DNA from: a virus
Virus record (IMG/VR): IMGVR_UViG_3300024262_000294
Coordinates: 1 to 21,533 of that record
Length of the DNA: 21,533 nt
Direction: 5' to 3' (one strand)
The notes under the pieces are model-generated. The model did not search any database, was not told where the DNA came from, and worked only from the letters and a program-made list of their open reading frames with translations. The position numbers were made by a program, and so were the translations under genes. Positions within the stretch are counted from its first letter, which is position 1. Every line of letters starts with the position of its first letter. Shown here in pieces: positions 4,363 through 21,533 of this stretch.

Positions 4363-6021
4363 TTAAGGACAAGCGGTTATAGGTCTAAAACCTAATAACT
4401 TATATGTCACTAACATTCTCTTAGTATTAACATTAATACCAATCACAACAAATTTATCATCATCTATTTCAAAATATTCACTGTTTATAGTTACTGTATC
4501 ACCTAAATCTAAAGCATCATGTTGGTCACAAGTACTATCATTATTACTTATCAAATAATTGGTATCTGATATCAATACAGTTGTACTTGATATTCTTACA
4601 CCGGTACAATTATTAGTCATTACACCCAATACTATACCTGTGTTAGATGCTAAGATTGGACAAGTTACTTCAAAAATATCATTTATTTGATTCCTATGTG
4701 CTAACCATGCCGCTGTTTCTGTAACAGCATCAGCAGAATAACGAATATTACTATCAATATCAACTGTTTCTAAATCATTATACAATGCCACATTACATGT
4801 TAAAAGAGCAGAAGTTTTTAAGTATTCATTCTTATAAACTTCTATATCTTTTACATTAACTAAACCACTTAAATCACCAGTATTTTGAATGGTGTAATTT
4901 TTTTGATAACCTAAATTTATTTGTTTAGGTGGAAATTCATATTCTACCTTTTCAACTTTAAAAGCGATAATATCTGTATTATCAATAAAATCTTGCCCCG
5001 CATCTAAAAATCTAACTAAAGGTGTATTAAGTTCATATCCTCTCACAGTATTCACATTTAGATCACCTACTGCATCAAACCAGTAAGTAACATCTAAATT
5101 ATCAATGATTGATTTAAATAATTTTACATAAGTAGTGGATGATGTTTGATAAAGTCCAAAAGTATAACTAGGTGCAAAATGAATCACTGAACCATTCAAT
5201 GATAATTCTGAAACAAGAAAATTTACAAAATCAGTAACAGTTTTTGTTACCTGCTTTACATCAATTGTAATATCGTATACAGGTTTTGAACCTAACTTAA
5301 TAGTACCTTCAGCTAAACAAGTATGATAATTACCTGATATAGGAGCAGTAGCGGCATCCATTAAAGCAGTAGTAGCATAATCTGCTGTAAATGTTAATGC
5401 TCCACCTCCATCTTTGACAGCATCAATACTAGCAACTGCGGCTCTTGCACCAGCGTAATCCCAATTACAACCATAAACCAACGTATTAGATTTTAAAAGT
5501 ACAGGCGTAATATTAAATACATCACCAAATAATCTTGGTTTAGTTTTATCTTTTAGTTCTATTTCGCCCTCGAAATTAGCCGGAACACCGGTAAATACTT
5601 CAGGATTAATAACTTTAGTCAGCACATCAAAATGAGATTTAGCTTTAATTTCAACTGTTTTTCTTTTTACTAATAATGTATCGCACTCACCTATAAATAA
5701 CGGATACCATACATTAGATGACGGAGCGAAATTAGATTTAACATATATTTTCATACTACGATCATGAAATAAATAGTCGTTTAAATAGTTTTGATCTTTA
5801 TTTATCAAACGAACATTCATACTATCATTCGTATTACCTAATTTTCTTTGTAATAATATTGAATCTTTAAGTAAAGGCTCATAAAATCTTTCTTCTGTAT
5901 CACCTGCAATAAAAGCTGTAAATCCTGAGTTAGAAAAATAAAATGTAGATTCCAATCCTGTATCAAATGATACACCCGTTATTTGTAGAGCAATTTGAAG
6001 TTGCTCTCTTTGAACACTCAC
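4363..6021 (-). CDS. Tail tip / baseplate hub-like protein
   Basis: This 552-residue protein begins with GTG at 6021. The start overlaps the TGA of the tape measure gene by 4 bases, and a GGAG site lies 8 bases upstream. The N-terminal half holds short beta-rich segments ending in FIGECDTLLVKRKTVEIKAK, a pattern seen in proteins that form the ring at the tail tip. A central block (about residues 165-260: PRLFGDVFNITPVLL, LVYGCNWDY, IKLGSKPVYDITIDVK) resembles siphophage minor tail proteins that carry a domain for assembling the tip. Being immediately downstream of the tape measure is the usual place for the distal-tail/hub genes. I see no protease, lysozyme or other catalytic motif. It could be a distal tail protein rather than the central hub. 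Confidence 0.75.
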   Translation of the reverse strand: MSVQREQLQIALQITGVSFDTGLESTFYFSNSGFTAFIAGDTEERFYEPLLKDSILLQRKLGNTNDSMNVRLINKDQNYLNDYLFHDRSMKIYVKSNFAPSSNVWYPLFIGECDTLLVKRKTVEIKAKSHFDVLTKVINPEVFTGVPANFEGEIELKDKTKPRLFGDVFNITPVLLKSNTLVYGCNWDYAGARAAVASIDAVKDGGGALTFTADYATTALMDAATAPISGNYHTCLAEGTIKLGSKPVYDITIDVKQVTKTVTDFVNFLVSELSLNGSVIHFAPSYTFGLYQTSSTTYVKLFKSIIDNLDVTYWFDAVGDLNVNTVRGYELNTPLVRFLDAGQDFIDNTDIIAFKVEKVEYEFPPKQINLGYQKNYTIQNTGDLSGLVNVKDIEVYKNEYLKTSALLTCNVALYNDLETVDIDSNIRYSADAVTETAAWLAHRNQINDIFEVTCPILASNTGIVLGVMTNNCTGVRISSTTVLISDTNYLISNNDSTCDQHDALDLGDTVTINSEYFEIDDDKFVVIGINVNTKRMLVTYKLLGFRPITACP

Positions 6022-9000
6022 TTTAAACGCTCCATATTAACAACATCTTCTTGAGCATCAGCTTGTCTTTTTTGATGCTCGATGGTTTCTTTAAATCCAA
6101 ATGAGTTAATCTGTCTTAAATTTGATACTTCTTCTCTCAATTGCCTTAATTCTTCAATGATTTCATCATTATCTTGAACTGGTGTACCAGATATACCGTA
6201 TTGTCTTAATTGTTGTGAAGTACTAGGGTCAATAACCATCTCACCTTGATGCAGGTAAGCGTATTGATTTTCAGGAACAAAATCTGTACCGTTCAAATAA
6301 GAAGGAACATTTAATCCAGTATTTAACGCTCTTGAATTTTGCAACATTAACCAAATACCTTCGTTTCTTAATGCTCCGTCTGCTCTAATTGCTATTGTTT
6401 CCTGTAACAAATTAAAAATATTTTCACCGATAAATTGAAGCATTTGATTATCAGTGAATTGCCCACCATAACCATTAATTGAGGTAGATGAATCAGTTCT
6501 TATACCTATCAATTCAGTTAACATTAAATTATTACGTTCAGCAATAAAATGAAGTAATTGATTATCAGAATATTGTCCACCATAACCTAAATCAACTGCT
6601 TGTCTGGATGCTTCTGATTCAATATTATTTAATGTTCCGTCAATATTAGATAATATTCTATTTCCTAATTGATTCTCTTGAGCGACAGCTTCATTCCAAG
6701 CGTTTATATCGTCCATAGTGAACCCTAATTCATTTTTAAGGTAATCAGTAACCACTTCATTAGAAGTTCCTATAACGTGCGCTAATTTGTTTGTAGACCA
6801 TAAATTATCACCGGCAATCTCTAGTAATATTTTAACTAAAGCATCATCACCATTATTTAAATTTTCAGTCAATTTAACTAAATCAATATCATTAGATGCA
6901 GCGAGTTCTAAAATTGATACATCTTTTGCCAAAGATGAATCAACAAGAACATTAGCTAATTTTTCAGAATTAAGTTGATTCTTATTTATCTCTTCTTGTG
7001 CTGAAATTGAATCTTCTAACAACTTAATTTGATAATCAATATCAGTTATCGACCAACCTTTAAATTCAGAATCAATATCTTTAGGATCTTCAGTAAGAAT
7101 TGAACTAGGATCAACAATCATACTTTCTAATTTTGACGTTACATCATCAAAGATTGAAGAATATTGTTGTGTGGACGCATAAAATTTTTGAGAAAAATCT
7201 AAGTAATCTTTAGCATATCCTGCTGCTTTATCAACATCACCTAATGCGACACTTTCGTTGAATAATTTTCCAGCAGCTTGCATTTGTTCTAAAGGAGATT
7301 GATTTTTAAGATCGGATATTTTTAACTCATCCAACAGATCCATAATTGTTTTATTAGCATCAATGGCTGCTTGATATCTTTCTAAATCAGTTAAAAGAGC
7401 TTCACCGGCTAAATCAGCATTAAATAGCATTAACTCACGTTGCTCTCTTAAAAATTCCAAACGAGCCTCATCACCTGTTGGAAATAAATCAGCTTTTAAT
7501 GAATCTAACTCTGATTGCAATGATTTAATGATATCTTTCAATCTGATCATTGCACTACCTAATTTTTGCAACGAAGGCAAAGCATCTCTTGTAGCTTCAT
7601 CAGAACCATCTAATGTCTTTATGTATTTGGCTAAATCTTTTGTAGTGTAACTGGTATGATCAGCAAGTACACCAAACTCATTATATACTTCTTGAATTTC
7701 TCTAATTGATGTTTCAAGATCAGAATTATCGTATAAAGAATTAAATAATTTTTCAATGGAAGTATTAAACTCTTCAATAGCTTCTAAATTTTCCTTAATA
7801 GCATCATCTTGATCTTTATATGCGTCATTTAATAATTTTAAATCATCAATTAAAACTAGTAATGTAGGATCAGTTTCATCTAATGATTTAGCATATTCCT
7901 GCAAAGCATCTACATCAAATAATGACAAATCTATATCATATTTTTCTGACAAATTATCAATTGTATTGGATGCTTTTTCTAATGGGGTTAAGTTTGAGTT
8001 TACTAAATCCTGTATTGATTCTTTGATTTTTCCAAAATGATCTCTCATGAAAACAATAGCATCAGTCAATTCATAAATTGACTGTATATGGTCAATATCT
8101 GCTTGACGCCTTAAATTAACTGAATCAATATATTTCACCACATCTTCAGCAGTTCTACCGAATTGTCCACCTAAATTATCAATTACTCTAAGAGCTTTTT
8201 CATAATCTTCAACACCTAATAATCTGTCTTTAGCATCTTGTAGTTTAACAAATTCATCAATCATTGAAGCGGTTAATTCTTCCTTTAAATCTCTCTCATC
8301 GGTGATGGTTTGTTTATAGGCGTCTTGTGCTGATATGAAATCTGTAAATACACCTTCTAATGCTGCTACCTGTCCCCATAATTTTTGACCTTCTTCATCA
8401 ACAGTATCTATACTTGCTAATAGATTTAAAAATCCTTGAGCAGTACTAGGTAAAGTAAATCCTAATGCTTCAAATGCTTTTGTGGCTCTGTCAGTGGCTA
8501 TTTGAAATTGTTTGCCTTCACCTAATAAACCGATAATACCATCCAACGATCCTTGTAGATTATCTAATCCACCTGCACCAAATAATGTAGAAGATGTTAG
8601 TGTCCCACTTCCTAGCGCATTAATTTGTAAACGGACATCTTCCATCGTTCTATAAGCATTATATATATCTTCTGCACTACCTGTTAATGTCCTCATTATG
8701 TCGAGAACACCATCACCCATACCGCCTACAAGTTCTTCAGCATTAATAATGGTCTGCTTAATAATTTCAGCACCCACATCTCCTTGTTTATTTACAACAT
8801 CGGTGAATTTTATAGTAACATCTTCAAATCGCTGACCTAGTTTAGAAACATAATAATCAGAAACTTGAACATCTCTGGACACTCTAACTAATGTTTCAAA
8901 TAATCCTTCACCTATTTTTTGGAAAGGTACTATAAATGATCCTGCAACGCTATTTACTATCATATCAGCTTGTGCGCTAAAGAAATTGGATAATTCTTCT

Positions 9001-12000
9001 TGTATCTCATCCCCTGTTTTACCAACAAAAGATATCTTCATTTCCTCTAAGATGACATCACTTAATAACCCTTCAACAATGCCTAGCTCTGCTCCAAGTC
9101 CAACTAATGAATCAGTAATTACACTTCCTATCTCACCAAAAACTAATGAAAATTGATTAGCTACTTCATCAGACACATCACTAAAATTATCTTCAACATC
9201 TGATGATGAACTAAACCAACTTTTTGTTGTTTCTTCAACAGTCTGAAATGAAACTGCATCCACACCGGATATAGCTGAATCTAATAATTGTTTATTGAAT
9301 TTAATACCATAATCAATCATTTCTTTTTTGGTTTTACCAAATAATCCACCAGCTATGAAATTAGTAATACCCCCTAATACAGGTACATCTTCAAGTATGG
9401 TAAAAATTTTTGCCATACCTGTTAATTCAGGTAATTGCTCTTCAAATCCTTCACCAAAAGCAAACCCACCTTGACGCATTAATATCGATGCAACGCCACC
9501 TAACTTACCATCAATGGATATCAAACTAGCGGTCATTTGAGACATTAGTTCAAATTCAGGTTTAGCATATTCTTCTAATGTTTCTAAAGAATTACTAAGA
9601 GACTCACTTTTAGCACTTGCATCACCTAATACAGTACTGGTGTTACTTGCGTTCGTTGATGTGTTTACATTTGAAGATAATCCAGTAGATGCTCCGCTTC
9701 CACCTAAATCACCCACATCTCCTACGAAACTTGCAACCATTGCTGCCATTGCTATCATTCTAGGAATAGCTGTATAAGGATCACCCATTCCTTGATTCAT
9801 GATGGCTGTTATACCTTTAGCTATTGCAAATGCTTGTTCAGCTATCATTGCTGCCTTAGCACCATCACTTCCTTCCTTAAACATTTTTGATGCTGCACCG
9901 GCTAAATTCCCATACATATCAAGTTGCTTTTGCTGATATTCAAATTTATCAGCATCAGTTTTATTAGTTTGTGCAGAATAGGTTGCTTCTAATGTAGCGA
10001 TATCTTCAAAAGCATTTTTAACATCAAACATACCTGAAACAACACGTTTTAAATCACTATCTAAACCTTTGGTGAAGTTTGTTTTCTCTTGTGCTCGACC
10101 TACACTTTTATATTCTTGAGTTAACTTCATCATAGACTTTGCAGCTAAAATAGCAGAAATAGCTTGTTTATCCATCAAAAAACTAATCTCTGCTATTCCA
10201 TTGGCAAATCTTTTCTGAGCACCAATTGTACTATCATATTGTTCTTTTAAATTCTCAATATAGTTATCGCTTAATATATCTTTACGATCTAAAAATGCTT
10301 GGTTAGTTTCTATAATACGTTGAGCATATTCTGTTTCAGATATGACTCCTTTATTCAAATCTTTAATATAATCTTTAATACTATCTGTCATAAAATCTTC
10401 AGCCGATGAAAAGTCAGGACCAATAACATCTGAATTTTTCATCCGATTAGATTCTTTATTAAAGTCACTCAAATTATCCGTGTATTTTTCTAAAGATTTT
10501 GCTGCTTTTTTTATTTGTTTTTCATTATCAGCAGTAGCTTTTTTAAAAGCTTTAGATTTTTGAGTATAAATCCCCATTCCTTTAGTATATTGTTCCAAGG
10601 TCACTTTCAACTTACTTGTACCTAATATGTAATCCACATAAAGTTTTGTAAGTTTACGTGCTTTATCAATCATCGGATCCATTCCTTTATCCAGATCTGA
10701 CATTAATCTTTTATGATCTTTTTCCGCTTGTGTTAATTTTTCAGTAGATGTGGTAATACCTAATAATTCATTTTTAGCGTCTAATAACGCTTTGGTATAT
10801 TCTTTCTCTTGAGCAGCAGCACCTTTAGTCATTTCAGCTTTAGTAAGCTGCATTTTAGACAACATTTGCATATTTTCAGAATATGTTTTTGTTGCTTCTT
10901 TCAATCCTGGTACTTCATAAACATTAGAGGGTGGTTTAATTAAATCAAAAGCTTTTTGCAATGCTTTGATTGCTTCTTCAAATGCGTTTACTTTTTTCTT
11001 AGCTTCGATTAAAACTGGATTAGTTTCTTCATTTGATTTTTTAAATTTATTTAATGCGGTTGTGGCTTTTTCAACTGAACCTGAACTTTTAAGAACAATA
11101 TCATAAATTATCTTACCTTGTGCAATACTTTTATCTTGTTCTAAAGTTAACTGTTTTTGTGCTTCAGTTAATCTTTTAGTTTGTTCAACAATAAGATTGC
11201 TAATATTTGATTTTGCTTCTTCACGTCTAGCTGGTGCTTCAATACGGGATAAATGTTGTCTTAATCTTAATTCTTCTGCAAGTACCTTGTTCGCTTCTTC
11301 TGTTTTTATTCTTTCTTCTTCTTTTTGTTTTGCCAACAAACTACCAGTTTCAGCAGCCAATTCACTTTCTCTTCTAGCGTCTTCTACACCAGAAGTATAG
11401 GTGTAAAAACTCCCTACGACTAAACCAATAGTAGTTAACAATAATCCCCAAGGTCCTAATAAAAAACGCATAGCAAAAGCTAATGCTCTTGTTGCCCATG
11501 ATGCTGCTTGAAGTGCTTTAACATATAACCAAGCAGCTACCGTTGAACCGCCTAATGCTACTGATAATTGGGCACTGGCAACCCCTGCAACATATTGACT
11601 ACGTGTCCAGACAGCTAATCCTTGAGTAGACAGTAATATACCTGTTGTTAAACGGGAGAAAAATCCCGTCATAACCGCTAATTGAGTATTAACAAATGCT
11701 GTGGCACTTCCTACTCCGAATAAGTTACCGGTAAAATTTGCAACTGCTAAAATAAGACTTGCAAGTTTTAATGATGCAAATGCTATTCCTAAATTTAAAA
11801 CAAAATTAGCTAAATCTTTTACATAAACCGTATTATCTTTTAGCCAAAGCGTTAAATCTGATAAATTTTGAATAAATCTTGTGATAAAGTTATCAGATGA
11901 TCCTAATATTTCATTAAGAGCTAATGACCAATTGTTACCCAAACGAGCAACGGAAGCAGAAACCGTATCGGTTAAACCAGGTAAATCTTTGGTACGATCA

Positions 12001-12665
12001 TATAGTTTCTCCATCGCACTAGCCATGACTTCACCGGTAATTTTACCTTCTGAACCTAACTGTTTTAAAGATTTTGTTGTACCGACAAATTCATCATGAA
12101 GTGCCCTTGCTAAAAGAGGTAAATTTTCCATCACAGAACGTAATTCATCACCCATCAGACCACCACCAGTAGCCGCACTAGCCATACCTTGAGATAATTG
12201 GTGCATGCCTGCTTGTAGCTCTTTTAATGTCCCACCTGCTAATCGTCCACTTAATACAACACCAGAAATCCATTTTTGCATGGTATCAACTGAAAAAGCA
12301 TTCTTAGTAGCAACAGAAAAACGACCTAATACACCAGCCACATCTTCAAATGCGATACCTAAATTATTAGCCATCGCAATTGTTTTTTCCATTGATTTAG
12401 TATCACCGGTTAAAGTGACCATTTTTTTACTAAGGAGATCGAATTTTTCAGCGGTTAGAGCCAGTTCTAAACCGACTCTTGCAAAGTTATCAGCGAGGGA
12501 TAATACAGCGAGGGATGCTCCTATGGTTTGTATTCTAGTAAGTGCATCGGCTGTTCGATTAGAACTATTGGTTATTGCGGCTAGTGACTGGTTTGTTCGT
12601 CTTGCTGATTGTTCTAAATCTGAAGCATCAAGTACAAGTCTAATCGTTCTTGTATTACCAGACAT
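6018..12665 (-). CDS. Tail tape measure protein
   Basis: At 2215 residues this is by far the largest gene here. It occupies the slot after the frameshifted chaperone genes, the conserved place for a tape measure protein. The ATG at 12665 has an AAGGTGA site about 8 bases upstream. Residues about 50-230 resemble the tape-measure N-terminal domain (GLMGDELRSVMENLPLLARA, then LKQLGSEGKITGEVMASAM). Hydrophobic segments at about 283-315 and 395-425 could insert in membrane during DNA ejection. Long helical, coiled-coil-prone stretches follow, with loosely repeated units of about 80 residues around 1475-1700. Two 32-residue repeats lie near 2026-2096, and a YLHQGEMVIDPS segment is near the C-terminus. 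In the tail it would fill the tube and set its length. Confidence 0.95.
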   Translation of the reverse strand: MSGNTRTIRLVLDASDLEQSARRTNQSLAAITNSSNRTADALTRIQTIGASLAVLSLADNFARVGLELALTAEKFDLLSKKMVTLTGDTKSMEKTIAMANNLGIAFEDVAGVLGRFSVATKNAFSVDTMQKWISGVVLSGRLAGGTLKELQAGMHQLSQGMASAATGGGLMGDELRSVMENLPLLARALHDEFVGTTKSLKQLGSEGKITGEVMASAMEKLYDRTKDLPGLTDTVSASVARLGNNWSLALNEILGSSDNFITRFIQNLSDLTLWLKDNTVYVKDLANFVLNLGIAFASLKLASLILAVANFTGNLFGVGSATAFVNTQLAVMTGFFSRLTTGILLSTQGLAVWTRSQYVAGVASAQLSVALGGSTVAAWLYVKALQAASWATRALAFAMRFLLGPWGLLLTTIGLVVGSFYTYTSGVEDARRESELAAETGSLLAKQKEEERIKTEEANKVLAEELRLRQHLSRIEAPARREEAKSNISNLIVEQTKRLTEAQKQLTLEQDKSIAQGKIIYDIVLKSSGSVEKATTALNKFKKSNEETNPVLIEAKKKVNAFEEAIKALQKAFDLIKPPSNVYEVPGLKEATKTYSENMQMLSKMQLTKAEMTKGAAAQEKEYTKALLDAKNELLGITTSTEKLTQAEKDHKRLMSDLDKGMDPMIDKARKLTKLYVDYILGTSKLKVTLEQYTKGMGIYTQKSKAFKKATADNEKQIKKAAKSLEKYTDNLSDFNKESNRMKNSDVIGPDFSSAEDFMTDSIKDYIKDLNKGVISETEYAQRIIETNQAFLDRKDILSDNYIENLKEQYDSTIGAQKRFANGIAEISFLMDKQAISAILAAKSMMKLTQEYKSVGRAQEKTNFTKGLDSDLKRVVSGMFDVKNAFEDIATLEATYSAQTNKTDADKFEYQQKQLDMYGNLAGAASKMFKEGSDGAKAAMIAEQAFAIAKGITAIMNQGMGDPYTAIPRMIAMAAMVASFVGDVGDLGGSGASTGLSSNVNTSTNASNTSTVLGDASAKSESLSNSLETLEEYAKPEFELMSQMTASLISIDGKLGGVASILMRQGGFAFGEGFEEQLPELTGMAKIFTILEDVPVLGGITNFIAGGLFGKTKKEMIDYGIKFNKQLLDSAISGVDAVSFQTVEETTKSWFSSSSDVEDNFSDVSDEVANQFSLVFGEIGSVITDSLVGLGAELGIVEGLLSDVILEEMKISFVGKTGDEIQEELSNFFSAQADMIVNSVAGSFIVPFQKIGEGLFETLVRVSRDVQVSDYYVSKLGQRFEDVTIKFTDVVNKQGDVGAEIIKQTIINAEELVGGMGDGVLDIMRTLTGSAEDIYNAYRTMEDVRLQINALGSGTLTSSTLFGAGGLDNLQGSLDGIIGLLGEGKQFQIATDRATKAFEALGFTLPSTAQGFLNLLASIDTVDEEGQKLWGQVAALEGVFTDFISAQDAYKQTITDERDLKEELTASMIDEFVKLQDAKDRLLGVEDYEKALRVIDNLGGQFGRTAEDVVKYIDSVNLRRQADIDHIQSIYELTDAIVFMRDHFGKIKESIQDLVNSNLTPLEKASNTIDNLSEKYDIDLSLFDVDALQEYAKSLDETDPTLLVLIDDLKLLNDAYKDQDDAIKENLEAIEEFNTSIEKLFNSLYDNSDLETSIREIQEVYNEFGVLADHTSYTTKDLAKYIKTLDGSDEATRDALPSLQKLGSAMIRLKDIIKSLQSELDSLKADLFPTGDEARLEFLREQRELMLFNADLAGEALLTDLERYQAAIDANKTIMDLLDELKISDLKNQSPLEQMQAAGKLFNESVALGDVDKAAGYAKDYLDFSQKFYASTQQYSSIFDDVTSKLESMIVDPSSILTEDPKDIDSEFKGWSITDIDYQIKLLEDSISAQEEINKNQLNSEKLANVLVDSSLAKDVSILELAASNDIDLVKLTENLNNGDDALVKILLEIAGDNLWSTNKLAHVIGTSNEVVTDYLKNELGFTMDDINAWNEAVAQENQLGNRILSNIDGTLNNIESEASRQAVDLGYGGQYSDNQLLHFIAERNNLMLTELIGIRTDSSTSINGYGGQFTDNQMLQFIGENIFNLLQETIAIRADGALRNEGIWLMLQNSRALNTGLNVPSYLNGTDFVPENQYAYLHQGEMVIDPSTSQQLRQYGISGTPVQDNDEIIEELRQLREEVSNLRQINSFGFKETIEHQKRQADAQEDVVNMERLK
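6378..6587 (-). repeat. Two 32-codon repeats near the tape measure C-terminus
   Basis: Units at 6492-6587 and 6378-6473 encode GYGGQYSDNQLL and GYGGQFTDNQML segments, each running on to an IRTD or IRAD end. By eye about 18 of 32 residues are identical. Six codons separate them. They are diverged, so this is an old internal duplication. It may mark a structural unit near the tail tip, where the C-terminus of the tape measure meets the hub. Confidence 0.8.
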
Positions 12666-12686: not shown

Positions 12687-13435
12687 TCATCGTTTTTTTC
12701 TTGGTTTACTGGCTGATTTTTTCTGTTTGGCTTTTTGATCATCAGCAACCAGGCGTAGATAACAACGATCCATTTCAAGAATTACATTTTTAAACAATTC
12801 TATATTATGGATCTTTTCTAATAGAGCATATTGAATAATGCTTGTAATAGGAATAGCACCAACACTCATGCTATTTAATCGTTCCGTTCCCAATACATTA
12901 AAGTCATTATAGTAAATGCTTTCATCTAAAGTCAACAAAGGCATTTCGTCAAAAGGTGATGGTCTACCTTCATCATGCAACTTTTTAAAGAAATCGTATT
13001 TATCACCATATTTAAACGACCATTTAAGGTAGCTTATTAGTTTTTTACTATTTCCTTTTTCACCTCTTCAAACTCAGATTCATCTCTTGAACAATCTTGA
13101 ATAAACTCTTTAATACTTTTATAAGCAGGATTAGTGATAATAGTTAAAGCTGATTCCTCAGAAAATGGTAAATCAGCTTTGACTCCTTCTTCACGAATAC
13201 CTTTCCAATCTTTTAAAATATTTTTACAAGTAATTTGGTCGTGGATATACATCGCTCTGGCATAATCACCTTTATCTTGCAACTTTTGAATTTGTTTAAG
13301 TTTTGATTGTAATGATCTGGTATGGGATGGATTACCGTCTTGAGCTACTTTAAATGAAATATCATCAGTAAATTGAAACCATTTTCCATCTGTAGCTAAG
13401 TCAATATCTGTTCTAGGTAAGTTTAAATTAAGCAT
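12687..13435 (-). CDS. Frameshifted tail assembly chaperone fusion (GT-like)
   Basis: This is the predicted product of -1 ribosomal frameshifting at 13040-13046. It has the 132 residues of the upstream protein plus 117 residues from the -1 frame, about 249 in all, with the junction reading EIVKN then LISYLKWSFKYGD. The -1 frame is open only from 13067 to its TGA at 12687. The first in-frame candidate start is a TTG at 12980 and no ATG occurs before MPLL, so an independent start is unlikely. The C-terminal part carries PFDEMPLLTLDESIYYNDF and ends in a lysine/arginine-rich tail (KQKKSASKPRKKR). In lambda, gpG and gpGT are 140 and 279 residues and chaperone tail assembly around the tape measure. 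Gene order here is the same: tube, G, GT, tape measure. The frameshift itself is inferred. Confidence 0.85.
13037..13435 (-). CDS. Tail assembly chaperone (G-like)
   Basis: This 132-residue zero-frame protein begins MLNLNLPRTDIDLATDGKWF. I chose the ATG at 13435 because it has an AGGA site 8 bases upstream. An in-frame ATG at 13486 has no site and lies at or before the expected transcript start from the promoter at 13492-13520. The protein is mixed alpha/beta and soluble, with a central ITCKNILKDWKGI segment and an acidic C-terminal helix ending EEVKKEIVKN. Being just before a tape measure gene, with a slippery heptamer at its last codons, makes it the counterpart of lambda gpG. That protein is a chaperone which is needed for tail assembly but absent from the virion. 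The sequence itself does not resemble lambda G closely, so the call rests on position and frameshift architecture. Confidence 0.85.
   Translation of the reverse strand: MLNLNLPRTDIDLATDGKWFQFTDDISFKVAQDGNPSHTRSLQSKLKQIQKLQDKGDYARAMYIHDQITCKNILKDWKGIREEGVKADLPFSEESALTIITNPAYKSIKEFIQDCSRDESEFEEVKKEIVKN
13040..13046 (-). promoter_or_regulatory. Slippery heptamer A AAA AAC for -1 frameshift
   Basis: In the zero frame the codons read GTA AAA AAC TAA, so the X XXY YYZ pattern sits exactly on the last two sense codons, directly before the stop. After a -1 slip the ribosome reads CTA ATA AGC into an open frame of 117 codons. The two frames overlap only between 13067 and 13037, and this heptamer lies inside that overlap. 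An AAGGAA Shine-Dalgarno-like element at 13052-13057 could help. No strong stem is evident downstream. Confidence 0.85.
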
Positions 13436-13584: not shown

Positions 13585-14793
13585 TTATGGCAATTCACCA
13601 ATCTTAGAAATTCTAATTACTTCACCAGTAGTCGCATCAGGAATACCAGTACCACTTAAATCGAGCATAGCCTGAGCATCTTGACCCGTACTGTCAGGGT
13701 CATCACCACTTAATTGACAATAAACCATTAAATTATAACCAAATCCATCTTCATTTATTACAGGGAAAATCACCTGAACAATGGTTTGATCCAATATTTT
13801 CTGCAACAATCCAAAATTAGCATCAGAAAAATGAGCAGTCGTTGAAACAGTTACATTAGCTGTTCCCAAGTCAAATGCTGTTTTAGCACGTTTGCCAACA
13901 CATGAACGACTAGTTAAACCGTTGTCGTTACCAATTGATAAAGATTCAATACAATATAATACCGCTACACCATCTATAATGATGTAAGGAATACCAGTTA
14001 CTGCACTGAAGAATTTTTCACTTGGAGTAGCAAGTAAGGTTCTTGCACCACCTGGTTGAACAATAGGTGTACCATTCAGAATATCTTTATCTGAACCCAT
14101 CAAACTGTATTCAATGGTAGGAATAGACCCATATTCAAATGTAGCGTTAAATGAACTGAACACTTCACCAGTATACATAATGGCTTTGTTGGTCATATCC
14201 AAATATTGCTTTTCAAATGAAAAACTGCGTAAAGTTGAACCAATATTGATATAAGGTGAAACCTGTGTACTTGCACCAGCACCAGCGGTTGCATCCCAAT
14301 CAGCAACCGTGTCAGATGTGATAACACCTAAAACCGTAGCGGTAACACTCGTTACATAAAAAACAATACCGTTATAAACATCAGCAGGAGCAACTAGGCC
14401 AGAAATTTGAACCGTATCACCGACATTAACAACAGTGGTTAAATCTGTACCACCAGTAGTCGTTAAAGTATCTGCTGTACCGTCATAAGCCATATCTTGA
14501 ACAATGGCTGCTGCAAATGCAGGCCATGTGTCCATCATTGTTGCTTCGATGAAATCATCATGAATGACGGTTCTTGAAAATTCGTTTGAAATACTGGCAT
14601 TAACATCTAAACCAGTAACAGTTTGACCGGAAGGTTTACGATCAGAACGTACCGTAGTGCTACTTGATATTTCAGGGGTTGCTGTAAATGCAGCAGAGGT
14701 TTTTGAGATTGCTTGAAAGTCACCAACCGGATTAACTTCAGCAAATGTTGCTTCTTCCAGATAAGAATGCTGGATAAGATTACCACTGGACAT
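13585..14793 (-). CDS. Major tail tube protein
   Basis: This 402-residue protein starts at an ATG with an AGGAG site 9 bases upstream. The N-terminal region has the tube-protein pattern ATPEISSSTTVRSDRKPSG followed by a GxxVNASISNEFS strand and DDFIEATMMDTW. This is the layout of the Phage_tube_2-like family, in which a beta-sandwich hexamer stacks into the tail tube. Residues about 110-175 (TTTGGTDLTTVVNVGDTVQI, then TVLGVIT) look like an extra inserted beta domain that may decorate the tube surface. It has its own promoter, an RBS-sequestering leader hairpin and a terminator, as expected for the most abundant tail protein. Downstream lie the chaperone and tape measure genes, which fits the role. 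The family name comes from motif recognition, not from a search. Confidence 0.9.
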   Translation of the reverse strand: MSSGNLIQHSYLEEATFAEVNPVGDFQAISKTSAAFTATPEISSSTTVRSDRKPSGQTVTGLDVNASISNEFSRTVIHDDFIEATMMDTWPAFAAAIVQDMAYDGTADTLTTTGGTDLTTVVNVGDTVQISGLVAPADVYNGIVFYVTSVTATVLGVITSDTVADWDATAGAGASTQVSPYINIGSTLRSFSFEKQYLDMTNKAIMYTGEVFSSFNATFEYGSIPTIEYSLMGSDKDILNGTPIVQPGGARTLLATPSEKFFSAVTGIPYIIIDGVAVLYCIESLSIGNDNGLTSRSCVGKRAKTAFDLGTANVTVSTTAHFSDANFGLLQKILDQTIVQVIFPVINEDGFGYNLMVYCQLSGDDPDSTGQDAQAMLDLSGTGIPDATTGEVIRISKIGELP

Positions 14794-16398: not shown

Positions 16399-17223
16399 TT
16401 AACCTATTCGCAAAACATTCATATTAAATAATTCAGTATTACCAGAAGATAGTATATCATAACCTTTATATTTTTCATGAACAAATGCTCGTAATATTGC
16501 TTGCTCCGTTATAAAAGCATATTGACCCTCTTCAAAATCCCAAGTCTTCACCACATCAAATTTTAACCTATCATCAACTGACCATCGTTGTTCTATAGTT
16601 TTATTGGTAATACCTATCTTATGAATCTCGGTATCTTTAATTTTTAAATAATAAAGAATAGCAGGTTTATTGGGATCGAAACCTCCACCAGTTGAACACG
16701 TTGGACATCCTTTACCTTGATTAACGTCAGTAAATTTAGCAAACCACCTGTGACCATGCTCACACATAAATTCTGTTTTAGTTTGACTATTAATGTACTT
16801 ACCAACTAACCATATACCACGATGATTAATTCTTTTATTTATTTCTTCTTTTGTCAATGTTCTGTTATTAACATCACAAGTCGGGCAACCAGTACCTTTA
16901 TTAACGATGTGACTAGAATCAGTAAACCACCTGTGACCATGCTCGCACATAAATTCTGTTTTAGTTCGACTATTAATGTACTTACCAACTAACCATATAC
17001 CACGATGATTAATTCTTTTATTTATTTCTTCTTTAGTTAGTTTTGTGTCAGAACAAGTTGGACATCCACATCCACGATTGACACTGTTAGAATCAGTAAA
17101 CCACCTGTGACCATACTCACACATAAATTCTGTTTTAGTTCGACTATTAATGTACTTACCAACTAACCATATACCACGATGATTAATTCTTTTATTTATT
17201 TCTTCTTTAGTTAGTTTCTTCAT
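16399..17223 (-). CDS. GIY-YIG homing endonuclease-like protein with three zinc-binding repeats
   Basis: This 274-residue protein has three repeats of about 60 residues (roughly 4-61, 62-122 and 123-180). Each begins LTKEEINKRINHRGIWLVGK and ends in a GCPTC. Within each, C, H, C and C of MCExGHRW and CPTC look like ligands of a treble-clef or zinc-ribbon finger. A C-terminal domain follows (LYYLKI, then HKIGITNKTIEQRW, then a TELF near the end), the pattern of a T5orf172/MUG113-type GIY-YIG nuclease. I chose the ATG at 17223, with GGAAA upstream, over a TTG at 17238 that has no site. It interrupts a row of neck genes, as free-standing homing endonucleases do in phages. Cutting activity and target are inferred, and a purely DNA-binding role is possible. 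Confidence 0.8.
   Translation of the reverse strand: MKKLTKEEINKRINHRGIWLVGKYINSRTKTEFMCEYGHRWFTDSNSVNRGCGCPTCSDTKLTKEEINKRINHRGIWLVGKYINSRTKTEFMCEHGHRWFTDSSHIVNKGTGCPTCDVNNRTLTKEEINKRINHRGIWLVGKYINSQTKTEFMCEHGHRWFAKFTDVNQGKGCPTCSTGGGFDPNKPAILYYLKIKDTEIHKIGITNKTIEQRWSVDDRLKFDVVKTWDFEEGQYAFITEQAILRAFVHEKYKGYDILSSGNTELFNMNVLRIG
16741..17208 (-). repeat. Three near-identical 111-bp tandem repeats within the endonuclease gene
   Basis: Copies at 16741-16851, 16924-17034 and 17098-17208 differ at only a few positions by eye. Spacing is 183 and 174 bases, both multiples of three, so the frame is kept. The less conserved linkers between copies vary in length. Near identity at DNA level points to recent duplication or gene conversion. 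Confidence 0.9.
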
Positions 17224-17262
17224 ATCGCTAATTTCCAATCAAAAATTATCAATCGTTTAGGA

Positions 17263-19264: not shown

Positions 19265-21142
19265 TTATACCGCTATAGCATAGTAAATATAGGTTGCTGT
19301 ATTTACATTCAGGTTAGCTGTTGCTTCTTGTGTCACTGCAAATCCTAAGTTATCAGCTACAATAGCTGTAATTGTTTGTTCTGCTGAGGTGGTATTTAAT
19401 TGAAGCATCTTAGTAAAGCCCCTCATAGTATCTACAAACCACCAATCACCTGCTTCGTCAGTGCGCTTAATCAATACAAATTTACTGCCTACCGAGAACC
19501 CACAATCTATGATATTACTACTGTCTGTTGTACCGTCACCTATGTATGAGCCTACTTTAGATATACCTGCCAAGGTTGCGAATAGGTAGGCTACATTTGC
19601 TGCATTAAGTGTATTAGAACCTGATGTATCTCTTATTGTAAATTGAGTGCTTGTAGCCGCTGTAGAATTAAACCAGGTTATAGGTGGTGGTGCTTTATTT
19701 GTCGAATCTAGTATTAAGCCTGTTGTCGCGCTGGTATATACAATCCAGTTAGCTACCCCATCTCTATTCTTAAACCATATCATTTCAGGGATCACACCTA
19801 GGCTATGATCAAATAAACCCGTACCCCCTGTACCTGTATAAGTAACTACATCAAAGAAGCCTTGTGCACGTTTCCACATCCATGAATAAAAGGTGGTATC
19901 TGTTCCTGCATCTTTATTGAACCCATTCATATAATCAAATGTCCAATCAGGTGCTGTCGCTTCTGCACCTGTACTGTTCATTTGCAATAGACCAGTACCT
20001 GCTAATCTAGTAGACGTATAATTATTTGTAACTGAATCAATATTTCTGGTTATACTCGCATCAGTCACAAAACCACTTTTATAGGCAGGGAGCGTAGAGC
20101 CATCTTTTGTATCAATAGCAAACACCTCACCAGCACTCGTAGGTGTTTTCATGGGTCTGCGGATTGCCATGTAGATGTAGTCACCGCTTGCTGACAGCTT
20201 TTGAATGAAGCCTGTTGGCGTAATATCAACGATATCTACAGTATTATAATCTATAGCATTCGTATTTGGAATCAACCAACCATCGAACCCTCCAGTAGTT
20301 ATACCTCTCATTATGTCTGCTTGCTCCCAATTCCCTATAGCTGAGGTTTTCTTAACCAAAACATATTGAGGTTCCCATCCAATGGTTATTTCTTGAGGAT
20401 TACTTACTGCTGTATAACCTCCACAAGCAATCATCCCATCACTACCATCACCACTTGGACCTAGTGGGTCATCTGCGAATAGGTAGGCTATGTATGTATT
20501 GAAATTATTATTAGTCTGTGATCCAGAGCCAAGTGAAAATACACTATCTGTTGGTTCAGTATTATTCCAATATAAGCTACCTCCAGAAGAAGCTGCTATT
20601 GTATTTAATAATAAAGCGTCTGTAGCAGTTGTGCTTTTATGATAAACAAACCAATCATTAATAGTACTAGTGACTTTAGTTATAATCATCCCAGGAGCAA
20701 CACCTAAGTCATGCGCTATCTCTCTACCTGCTACACCATTGCCAGTGTAAGTAACTACATCAAAAAAACGTGGGGCTTTTCGGAATGTCCATGATGCGTA
20801 AGCTTCAGTATTGGTATTAACTTTAACATCAGCTCCCAGGGTAAAACCTGTTGTACCAAAAGCTGTTATTGTATCTGCATCTGATACTTCTGCTGCGTCA
20901 GTCTCACTAGTTAATGTATTTCCTGCACCCCTAATGGTATCTGTTATAACATGCGTATCTGCGGCATCACGATTTTTAATCCAAACCATGCCATCTTCAG
21001 TAGACAGGTCAATATCATTAACTATGCCTAAGGCTGCACCAGTACCAGTGTATAAATAAGTGCTAAACACATCTTCAACAGTTAAAACTACATCACCTTG
21101 TCCACCTTGTTCAACACCTTGTAATGCTTTCAATAGATTCAT
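19265..21142 (-). CDS. Fibre protein with two DUF7483-like modules
   Basis: This 625-residue protein begins MNLLKALQGVEQGGQGDVVL. I chose the ATG at 21142, four bases beyond the stop of the upstream gene. A TTG at 21175 would create an overlap and a poor N-terminus. Two modules share FFDVVTYTG at about residues 127 and 428, each followed by an (A/S)LGVxP segment, an NWxVY stretch and an AYLFA strand. This is the repeated layout I know from DUF7483-type phage fibres, which often also carry concanavalin-like folds. The protein is rich in T, G, D and N and is beta-prone, with no membrane segment. It is probably a virion appendage. Its place on the head side of the neck suggests a head or neck fibre rather than a tail-tip fibre. 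Confidence 0.75.
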   Translation of the reverse strand: MNLLKALQGVEQGGQGDVVLTVEDVFSTYLYTGTGAALGIVNDIDLSTEDGMVWIKNRDAADTHVITDTIRGAGNTLTSETDAAEVSDADTITAFGTTGFTLGADVKVNTNTEAYASWTFRKAPRFFDVVTYTGNGVAGREIAHDLGVAPGMIITKVTSTINDWFVYHKSTTATDALLLNTIAASSGGSLYWNNTEPTDSVFSLGSGSQTNNNFNTYIAYLFADDPLGPSGDGSDGMIACGGYTAVSNPQEITIGWEPQYVLVKKTSAIGNWEQADIMRGITTGGFDGWLIPNTNAIDYNTVDIVDITPTGFIQKLSASGDYIYMAIRRPMKTPTSAGEVFAIDTKDGSTLPAYKSGFVTDASITRNIDSVTNNYTSTRLAGTGLLQMNSTGAEATAPDWTFDYMNGFNKDAGTDTTFYSWMWKRAQGFFDVVTYTGTGGTGLFDHSLGVIPEMIWFKNRDGVANWIVYTSATTGLILDSTNKAPPPITWFNSTAATSTQFTIRDTSGSNTLNAANVAYLFATLAGISKVGSYIGDGTTDSSNIIDCGFSVGSKFVLIKRTDEAGDWWFVDTMRGFTKMLQLNTTSAEQTITAIVADNLGFAVTQEATANLNVNTATYIYYAIAV

Positions 21143-21146
21143 ATCA

Positions 21147-21533
21147 TTACACCGTCTTAATATCTGTACCAACAACTGTTAGCGTATAGACATCATCCTT
21201 ATCTTTAGTTACTAACAATCTATCTGTACCTGCTACTGTTAGCGTAGGGGCAACACCTCCCGCAAATAGCATGGCAGCTGGCCAAGTGATTGTACAATTA
21301 CCTCCATTAACAATATCAAAAATATAAGCACACACATTGCTGGCTACAAAATTACTAAAAGCAATCGTTAATGTACCAGCAGCAGGTGCGGTTATTTGCT
21401 GCATATCTCCTGCTGAATAATCAAACGTATGCGTGGTGGTAGTTGCTGGTGTTGCGTCTGCTGCTTGAAGATAACTACTATCTGTTATCTGATTGCCGTT
21501 ACAGTCTAAATTACCCCCTAACTGAGGTGTAGT
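21147..21533 (-). CDS. Fibre-like protein (5' end missing, cut by the right edge)
   Basis: The reading frame is open to the window edge, 43 codons upstream of an internal ATG at 21404 that could be mistaken for the start. The visible 128 residues begin TTPQLGGNLDCNGNQITD, a motif very common in phage fibre proteins and normally internal, so the true start lies outside the window. The rest is a beta-rich domain (GTLTIAFSNFVASNVCAYIF, CTITWP, TLTVAGTDRLLVTKDKDDVY). This resembles short C-terminal fibre domains that end in similar strands. It ends five bases before the start of the next fibre gene. I infer it is the last domain of a larger fibre or head-appendage protein. Confidence 0.8.
   Translation of the reverse strand, partial: TTPQLGGNLDCNGNQITDSSYLQAADATPATTTTHTFDYSAGDMQQITAPAAGTLTIAFSNFVASNVCAYIFDIVNGGNCTITWPAAMLFAGGVAPTLTVAGTDRLLVTKDKDDVYTLTVVGTDIKTV

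Follow-up and report, generated by a model that had tools for sequence, protein, structure and literature searches.

A predicted programmed -1 ribosomal frameshift at a stop-abutting heptamer in a phage tail assembly chaperone gene

Introduction

Between the tail tube and tape measure genes of a 21.5-kb fragment of an IMG/VR viral contig (hereafter the window), two overlapping reading frames meet at a slippery-looking heptamer and a stop codon. Are these frames two genes, or one gene that ribosomes read in two frames? Frameshifting of the lambda G/GT type in the -1 direction is established and well known in long-tailed phages (Levin 1993; Xu, Hendrix and Duda 2004; both as cited in PMC5009743), and the initial annotation of the window proposed that a frameshift of this type joins its tail chaperone genes.

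Results

All the tail genes that we examined are encoded on the minus strand. The gene for the tail tube protein (13585..14793; Pfam Phage_tube_2, E 1.2e-17; phrog_290, E 8.1e-38) is directly upstream of ORF1 (13037..13435), which has a Shine-Dalgarno sequence, AGGAAA, at 13447-13442, begins with the ATG at 13435 and ends with a TAA at 13039-13037. ORF1 encodes a 132-aa G-like tail assembly chaperone that matches phrog_313 (E 3.1e-12) and positions 13-134 of the 271 in phrog_8233, both tail assembly chaperone families. The T-like extension in the -1 frame (12687..13040, 117 codons past the slip) matches phrog_3817 (E 9.3e-12) and much of the rest of phrog_8233, at positions 139-263. Directly downstream lies the tape measure protein gene (6018..12665; Pfam TMP_3, E 5.4e-27; many PHROG tape-measure matches). 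The order of tube, chaperone, -1 frame and tape measure is standard, in the window as in related phage records. By the usual rule of 0.15 nm of tail length per tape measure residue, the very long tape measure protein of the window, at 2215 aa, corresponds to a tail of ~330 nm.

Two other proteins of the window drew our attention. Within the tail/connector module, a 279-aa ORF (16399-17238, minus strand) contains three tandem repeats of ~161 nt that are 80-88% identical and whose products resemble treble-clef zinc fingers (Pfam DUF4379, CapR), with a weak MUG113 match C-terminally; the ORF has the look of a mobile or homing-endonuclease-like gene that was inserted here. A 636-aa protein of unassigned role (19265-21175, minus strand), encoded upstream of the connector genes, has two DUF7483 stretches (Pfam E 1.4e-82).

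At its 3' end ORF1 reads ...GAA ATA GTA AAA AAC TAA, which places the heptamer A_AAA_AAC (13040..13046, minus strand) in the zero-frame register X_XXY_YYZ, 0 nt from the TAA. The coding strand has three AAAAAAC strings and, by arithmetic from the coordinates, only the one at 13046-13040 has the register for a slip. The open stretch of the -1 frame, 13067 to 12687, starts 28 bases before the ORF1 stop and overlaps ORF1 by 31 bases, stop included. The earliest ATG, GTG or TTG in it, a TTG, comes 59 nt after the ORF1 stop begins, and a single ATA precedes it. The predicted full-length product of the -1 frame is reachable only by frameshifting. On all of these points, namely the heptamer in frame immediately before the stop, the 31-base overlap and the 117 codons that lack an early start, the initial annotation was correct.

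Do the two frames specify one protein? The conceptual fusion of ORF1 and the -1 frame gave a single uninterrupted match to phrog_8233 (residues 11-247 against 15-263; 71.4 bits), whereas the separate halves scored 40.0 and 21.9 bits, which together fall below the score of the fusion, and their matches meet at positions 134/139 of the profile. One continuous match that exceeds the sum of its halves speaks directly, at the level of homology, for the two frames making one protein. A comparison of the ORF1 profile with solved structures returned no convincing match.

Relatives are widespread: tblastn found relatives of ORF1 or the -1 product in several hundred phages (of Pseudomonas, Vibrio, Achromobacter, Caulobacter, Rhodobacter and others). 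We compared the window with 98 related loci, comprising 25 named phage records (from which a near-copy of phiCbK was omitted), 72 IMG/VR loci found through the -1 frame with a three-member alignment and peptide patterns, and L103 (IMGVR_UViG_3300017598_000806), the closest informative relative, located through its tail tube protein. One IMG/VR contig is near-identical to the window; among viral contigs, scans with the tape-measure start recovered this one only, and genome contigs gave no match. The 99 loci, window included, fall into 54 groups when clustered at 70% identity of the -1 product. The IMG/VR loci were sought with two peptide patterns, one of which includes the junction KL, a mild bias; the named phages, picked by protein similarity, agree, with the heptamer in 25/25.

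All 99 loci carry an in-frame A_AAA_AAC (46 loci, 28 groups) or G_GGA_AAC (53 loci, 26 groups) at the end of ORF1, and none has AAG or AAT as the last codon of the heptamer. Since 98/98 homologous loci have one of these two heptamers at the same place, the heptamer of the window is far beyond chance. The initial annotation had suggested comparing homologues for adjacent frames and a conserved heptamer, and both were found in every one of the 98, named phages included. It had also described the site as A-rich, unlike the GGGAAAG of lambda; the difference from lambda stands, but an A-rich site is nothing unusual in a family that uses A_AAA_AAC or G_GGA_AAC only.

The pattern of conservation extends to synonymous positions. 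The three X bases are identical in every locus, though the first of them is a synonymous third codon position: the third base of the pre-slip codon is A in 28/28 A-type groups and G in 26/26 G-type groups, with background third-base frequencies of 0.157 for A and 0.284 for G (naive P ~10^-37, relatedness ignored). Similarly, all 26 G-type groups use GGA despite its being a minor glycine codon (37/395), and the asparagine codon of the heptamer is always AAC, with AAT making up 29% of asparagine codons in these genes. The agreement of X1, X2 and X3 fits re-pairing of the P-site tRNA rather than protein constraint alone. Leucine (CTN) directly follows the slip in the -1 frame in 53 of the 54 groups. 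L103, with ~47% amino acid identity in each frame and saturated synonymous sites, retains the identical ATAGTAAAAAACTA junction and the same gene order; its stop is TAG instead of TAA.

Collectively, the homologues and the fusion match to phrog_8233 support the frameshift that the initial annotation had proposed, and we conclude that the chaperone gene of the window very probably ends in a programmed -1 ribosomal frameshift site of the lambda G/GT type. Read directly from the DNA are the register, the open frames, the gene order, the homology of the fused product and a heptamer that is conserved in every locus and covaries. The slippage itself, its frequency and the roles of the proteins we infer: most ribosomes would terminate at the TAA and release the 132-aa G-like chaperone, and in a minority tRNA-Lys on AAA and tRNA-Asn on AAC would slip one base back onto AAA AAA, after which reading would proceed through CUA AUA AGC... 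to produce a G-T fusion of 249 aa. If the two parts act as they do in lambda, G may bind the tape measure protein and T recruit the tail tube protein, with tail assembly controlled by a low GT:G ratio.

The stop directly after the heptamer raises the question of whether it takes part in the slip. Among the 99 loci, the distance from heptamer to stop is 0 nt in 72, 3 nt in 11, 12 nt in 1 and 39 nt in 15. By groups (<70% identity), nothing separates heptamer and stop in 45 of 54 (TGA in 21, TAA in 20, TAG in 4). In the M6/CN1-like clade (L010, L038-L040, L044, L045, L052, L056, L058-L060, L065, L071, L072 and L090), which lacks an abutting stop, the zero frame continues for 39 nt past the heptamer to a TAG. 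The conserved leucine accounts for the C-T at the junction, but it does not account for the zero-frame TNN being a stop in most groups: leucine needs just a TNN codon, and only 3 of the 16 TNN codons are stops.

With the stop abutting the slip site, slippage may face competition from release factor. In a variant of the frameshift model, a shifty stop, slippage would be post-translocational: the tRNA for Lys would occupy the E site, the tRNA for Asn the P site and the stop codon the A site, so that the level of release factor would set the GT:G ratio. An abutting stop is present in 27/28 A-type groups and 18/26 G-type groups (Fisher p 0.01, phylogeny ignored), a difference that fades at 50% clustering (p 0.11), and nine groups manage without one. 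E. coli work on the HIV site, described in PMC4373837, points both ways: with a stop at this position the site was sensitive to release factor 2, but the stop decreased, rather than increased, frameshifting. Nor does the abutting stop appear to substitute for a downstream hairpin, an idea that we rejected (mean hairpin z -1.75 with the stop and -1.18 without; p 0.27). We consider the shifty-stop variant possible but doubtful. A broader proposal, that the chaperone family forms a distinct release-factor-gated class of -1 frameshifts in bacteria, with an RRR-AAC heptamer, a type that slips poorly on E. coli ribosomes, abutting a stop, slippage with that stop in the A site and a G:GT ratio dependent on release factor supply, strikes us as somewhat less likely still. 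Either way, the M6/CN1-like clade provides natural comparison cases for the idea.

We examined possible stimulators on both sides of the heptamer. For downstream structure, the minimum free energy (MFE) of the 54 nt that begin 5 nt past the heptamer was compared with synonymous-codon permutations, with pseudoknots outside the model. Family-wide, the mean MFE was -14.5 kcal/mol compared to -10.0 kcal/mol in permutations (0/100 as low), and a hairpin with z below -1.5 was present in 61% of the 54 groups. Windows further downstream had a weaker excess of structure, still 0/100 at offsets 60 and 120. By contrast, the 54 nt in the window had no stem beyond that of permutations (MFE -4.4 vs -4.8 kcal/mol); thus the initial annotation rightly saw no evident strong stem here, where most relatives have a hairpin. 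A 7-bp CTACCTT/AAGGTAG pairing located 7 nt downstream was equalled by half of the permutations and was set aside. A downstream stem-loop is optional for bacterial -1 frameshift signals, and its absence does not bar the window from membership.

Upstream, a Shine-Dalgarno-like purine tract, GAGGTGAAAAAGGAA (13052..13066, minus strand; 6-20 nt before the heptamer), is a possible stimulator. It includes the AAGGAA to which the initial annotation drew attention (13057-13052) and a stronger GAGGTGA (13066-13060), and a tract of this kind is present in L103 as well. The best anti-Shine-Dalgarno duplex in the window has an energy of -10.1 kcal/mol, which is not significant against synonymous permutations (0.195), and across the family 36/200 permutations reach the observed mean. 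The element is present, but because amino acid composition explains it at the family level it cannot be claimed as selected.

How efficient might the site be? On the ribosomes of E. coli, which may not be those of the host, A_AAA_AAC is far less shift-prone than A_AAA_AAG (PMC5009743; PMC4066793), and bacterial ribosomes favour heptamers whose last three bases are all purine or all pyrimidine (PMC4066793). Because the heptamer is weak on E. coli ribosomes and the window lacks the hairpin common in its relatives, the predicted efficiency of frameshifting could be very low.

Three explanations would dispense with ribosomal slippage. In the first, the second frame is a separate gene translated by re-initiation after the ORF1 stop. 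The AAGGAA just before that stop would suit this reading, as would many GenBank records, in which the second frame is entered as an ORF of its own, truncated at the 5' end and starting further downstream (L005, L006, L010, L086-L090, L092, L094, L095 and L097-L100). However, the TTG of the window comes late and, across groups, the first ATG, GTG or TTG of the -1 frame lies 3 to 95 codons past the slip. The conserved start that the initial annotation had named as evidence against a frameshift is not seen in these groups, while relatives do conserve the residues that immediately follow the slip. The covariation of X1, X2 and X3 is, moreover, not needed for re-initiation, which we judge to be very improbable.

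The homologues argue similarly against transcriptional slippage, in which some mRNAs would have an altered number of A's and the frames would be joined without slippage by the ribosome. Although the window has a run of six A's in an AT-rich gene, roughly one homologous group in two carries GGGAAAC here, which contains no long homopolymer, and a six-A run is short for slippage by RNA polymerase; this explanation is slightly less probable again. Finally, an assembly error or a true frameshift mutation in a once-continuous gene, which error-prone homopolymers might bring to mind, is refuted by the homologues and can be dismissed almost entirely, as the other IMG/VR contig is the same in sequence (L002/L003) and 97 more divergent loci share the frame relation and the heptamer.

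Discussion

The programmed -1 frameshift that we propose resembles G/GT of lambda in its position between the tail tube and tape measure genes, in its direction, in its products, a short chaperone and an extended fusion, and in placing an X_XXY_YYZ heptamer close to where the first gene ends. The heptamers differ: lambda has G_GGA_AAG, and the window has A_AAA_AAC with the stop right behind it. The spacing differs too: the mean distance from slip to stop is 26 nt in the SEA-PHAGES set and 36 nt in the Xu set (PMC10885494), compared to mostly 0 in the family of the window. Judged by its homologues, the site is real and ordinary for its family, and its traits unlike those of lambda are family traits.

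Closer precedents exist in single phages. AAAAAAC has been reported in gp93/gp94 of Caulobacter phage phiCbK, and GGGAAAC in Colossus (PMC3556154). The phiCbK ORF1 is detectably related to that of the window (27% identity) and ends in the same AAAAAAC TAA, but its -1 extension is longer (~160 aa). In Burkholderia phage KL1, GGGAAAC lies immediately upstream of the ORF1 stop and gp18/gp19 form a -1 fusion (PMC3483164). This chaperone pair is homologous and its heptamer likewise abuts the stop; KL1 differs in using G_GGA_AAC with TGA and in having an extra tail gene between chaperone and tape measure. Stops directly after the slip site also occur in Rous sarcoma virus and barley yellow dwarf virus (PMC4373837), in unrelated genes read by eukaryotic ribosomes. 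As both heptamers and the stop-abutting layout were already in single-phage papers, what is new here is one more member and a family-wide tabulation.

Among the records inspected, only phiCbK/Karma, KL1, AH03, Loki and RcHartney have a joined CDS; most treat the second frame as an ORF of its own, cut short, or leave it unannotated, and L091 and L101 have no CDS over the -1 frame. The tabulation settles the reading of the chaperone gene pair in the window and provides a simple annotation rule for a large phage family: the chaperone gene should finish with AAAAAAC or GGGAAAC, in most cases right before the stop. The absolute preference for AAC, which is disfavoured in E. coli tests, beside a stop makes slippage in the A and P sites versus the E and P sites testable in natural bacterial sites.
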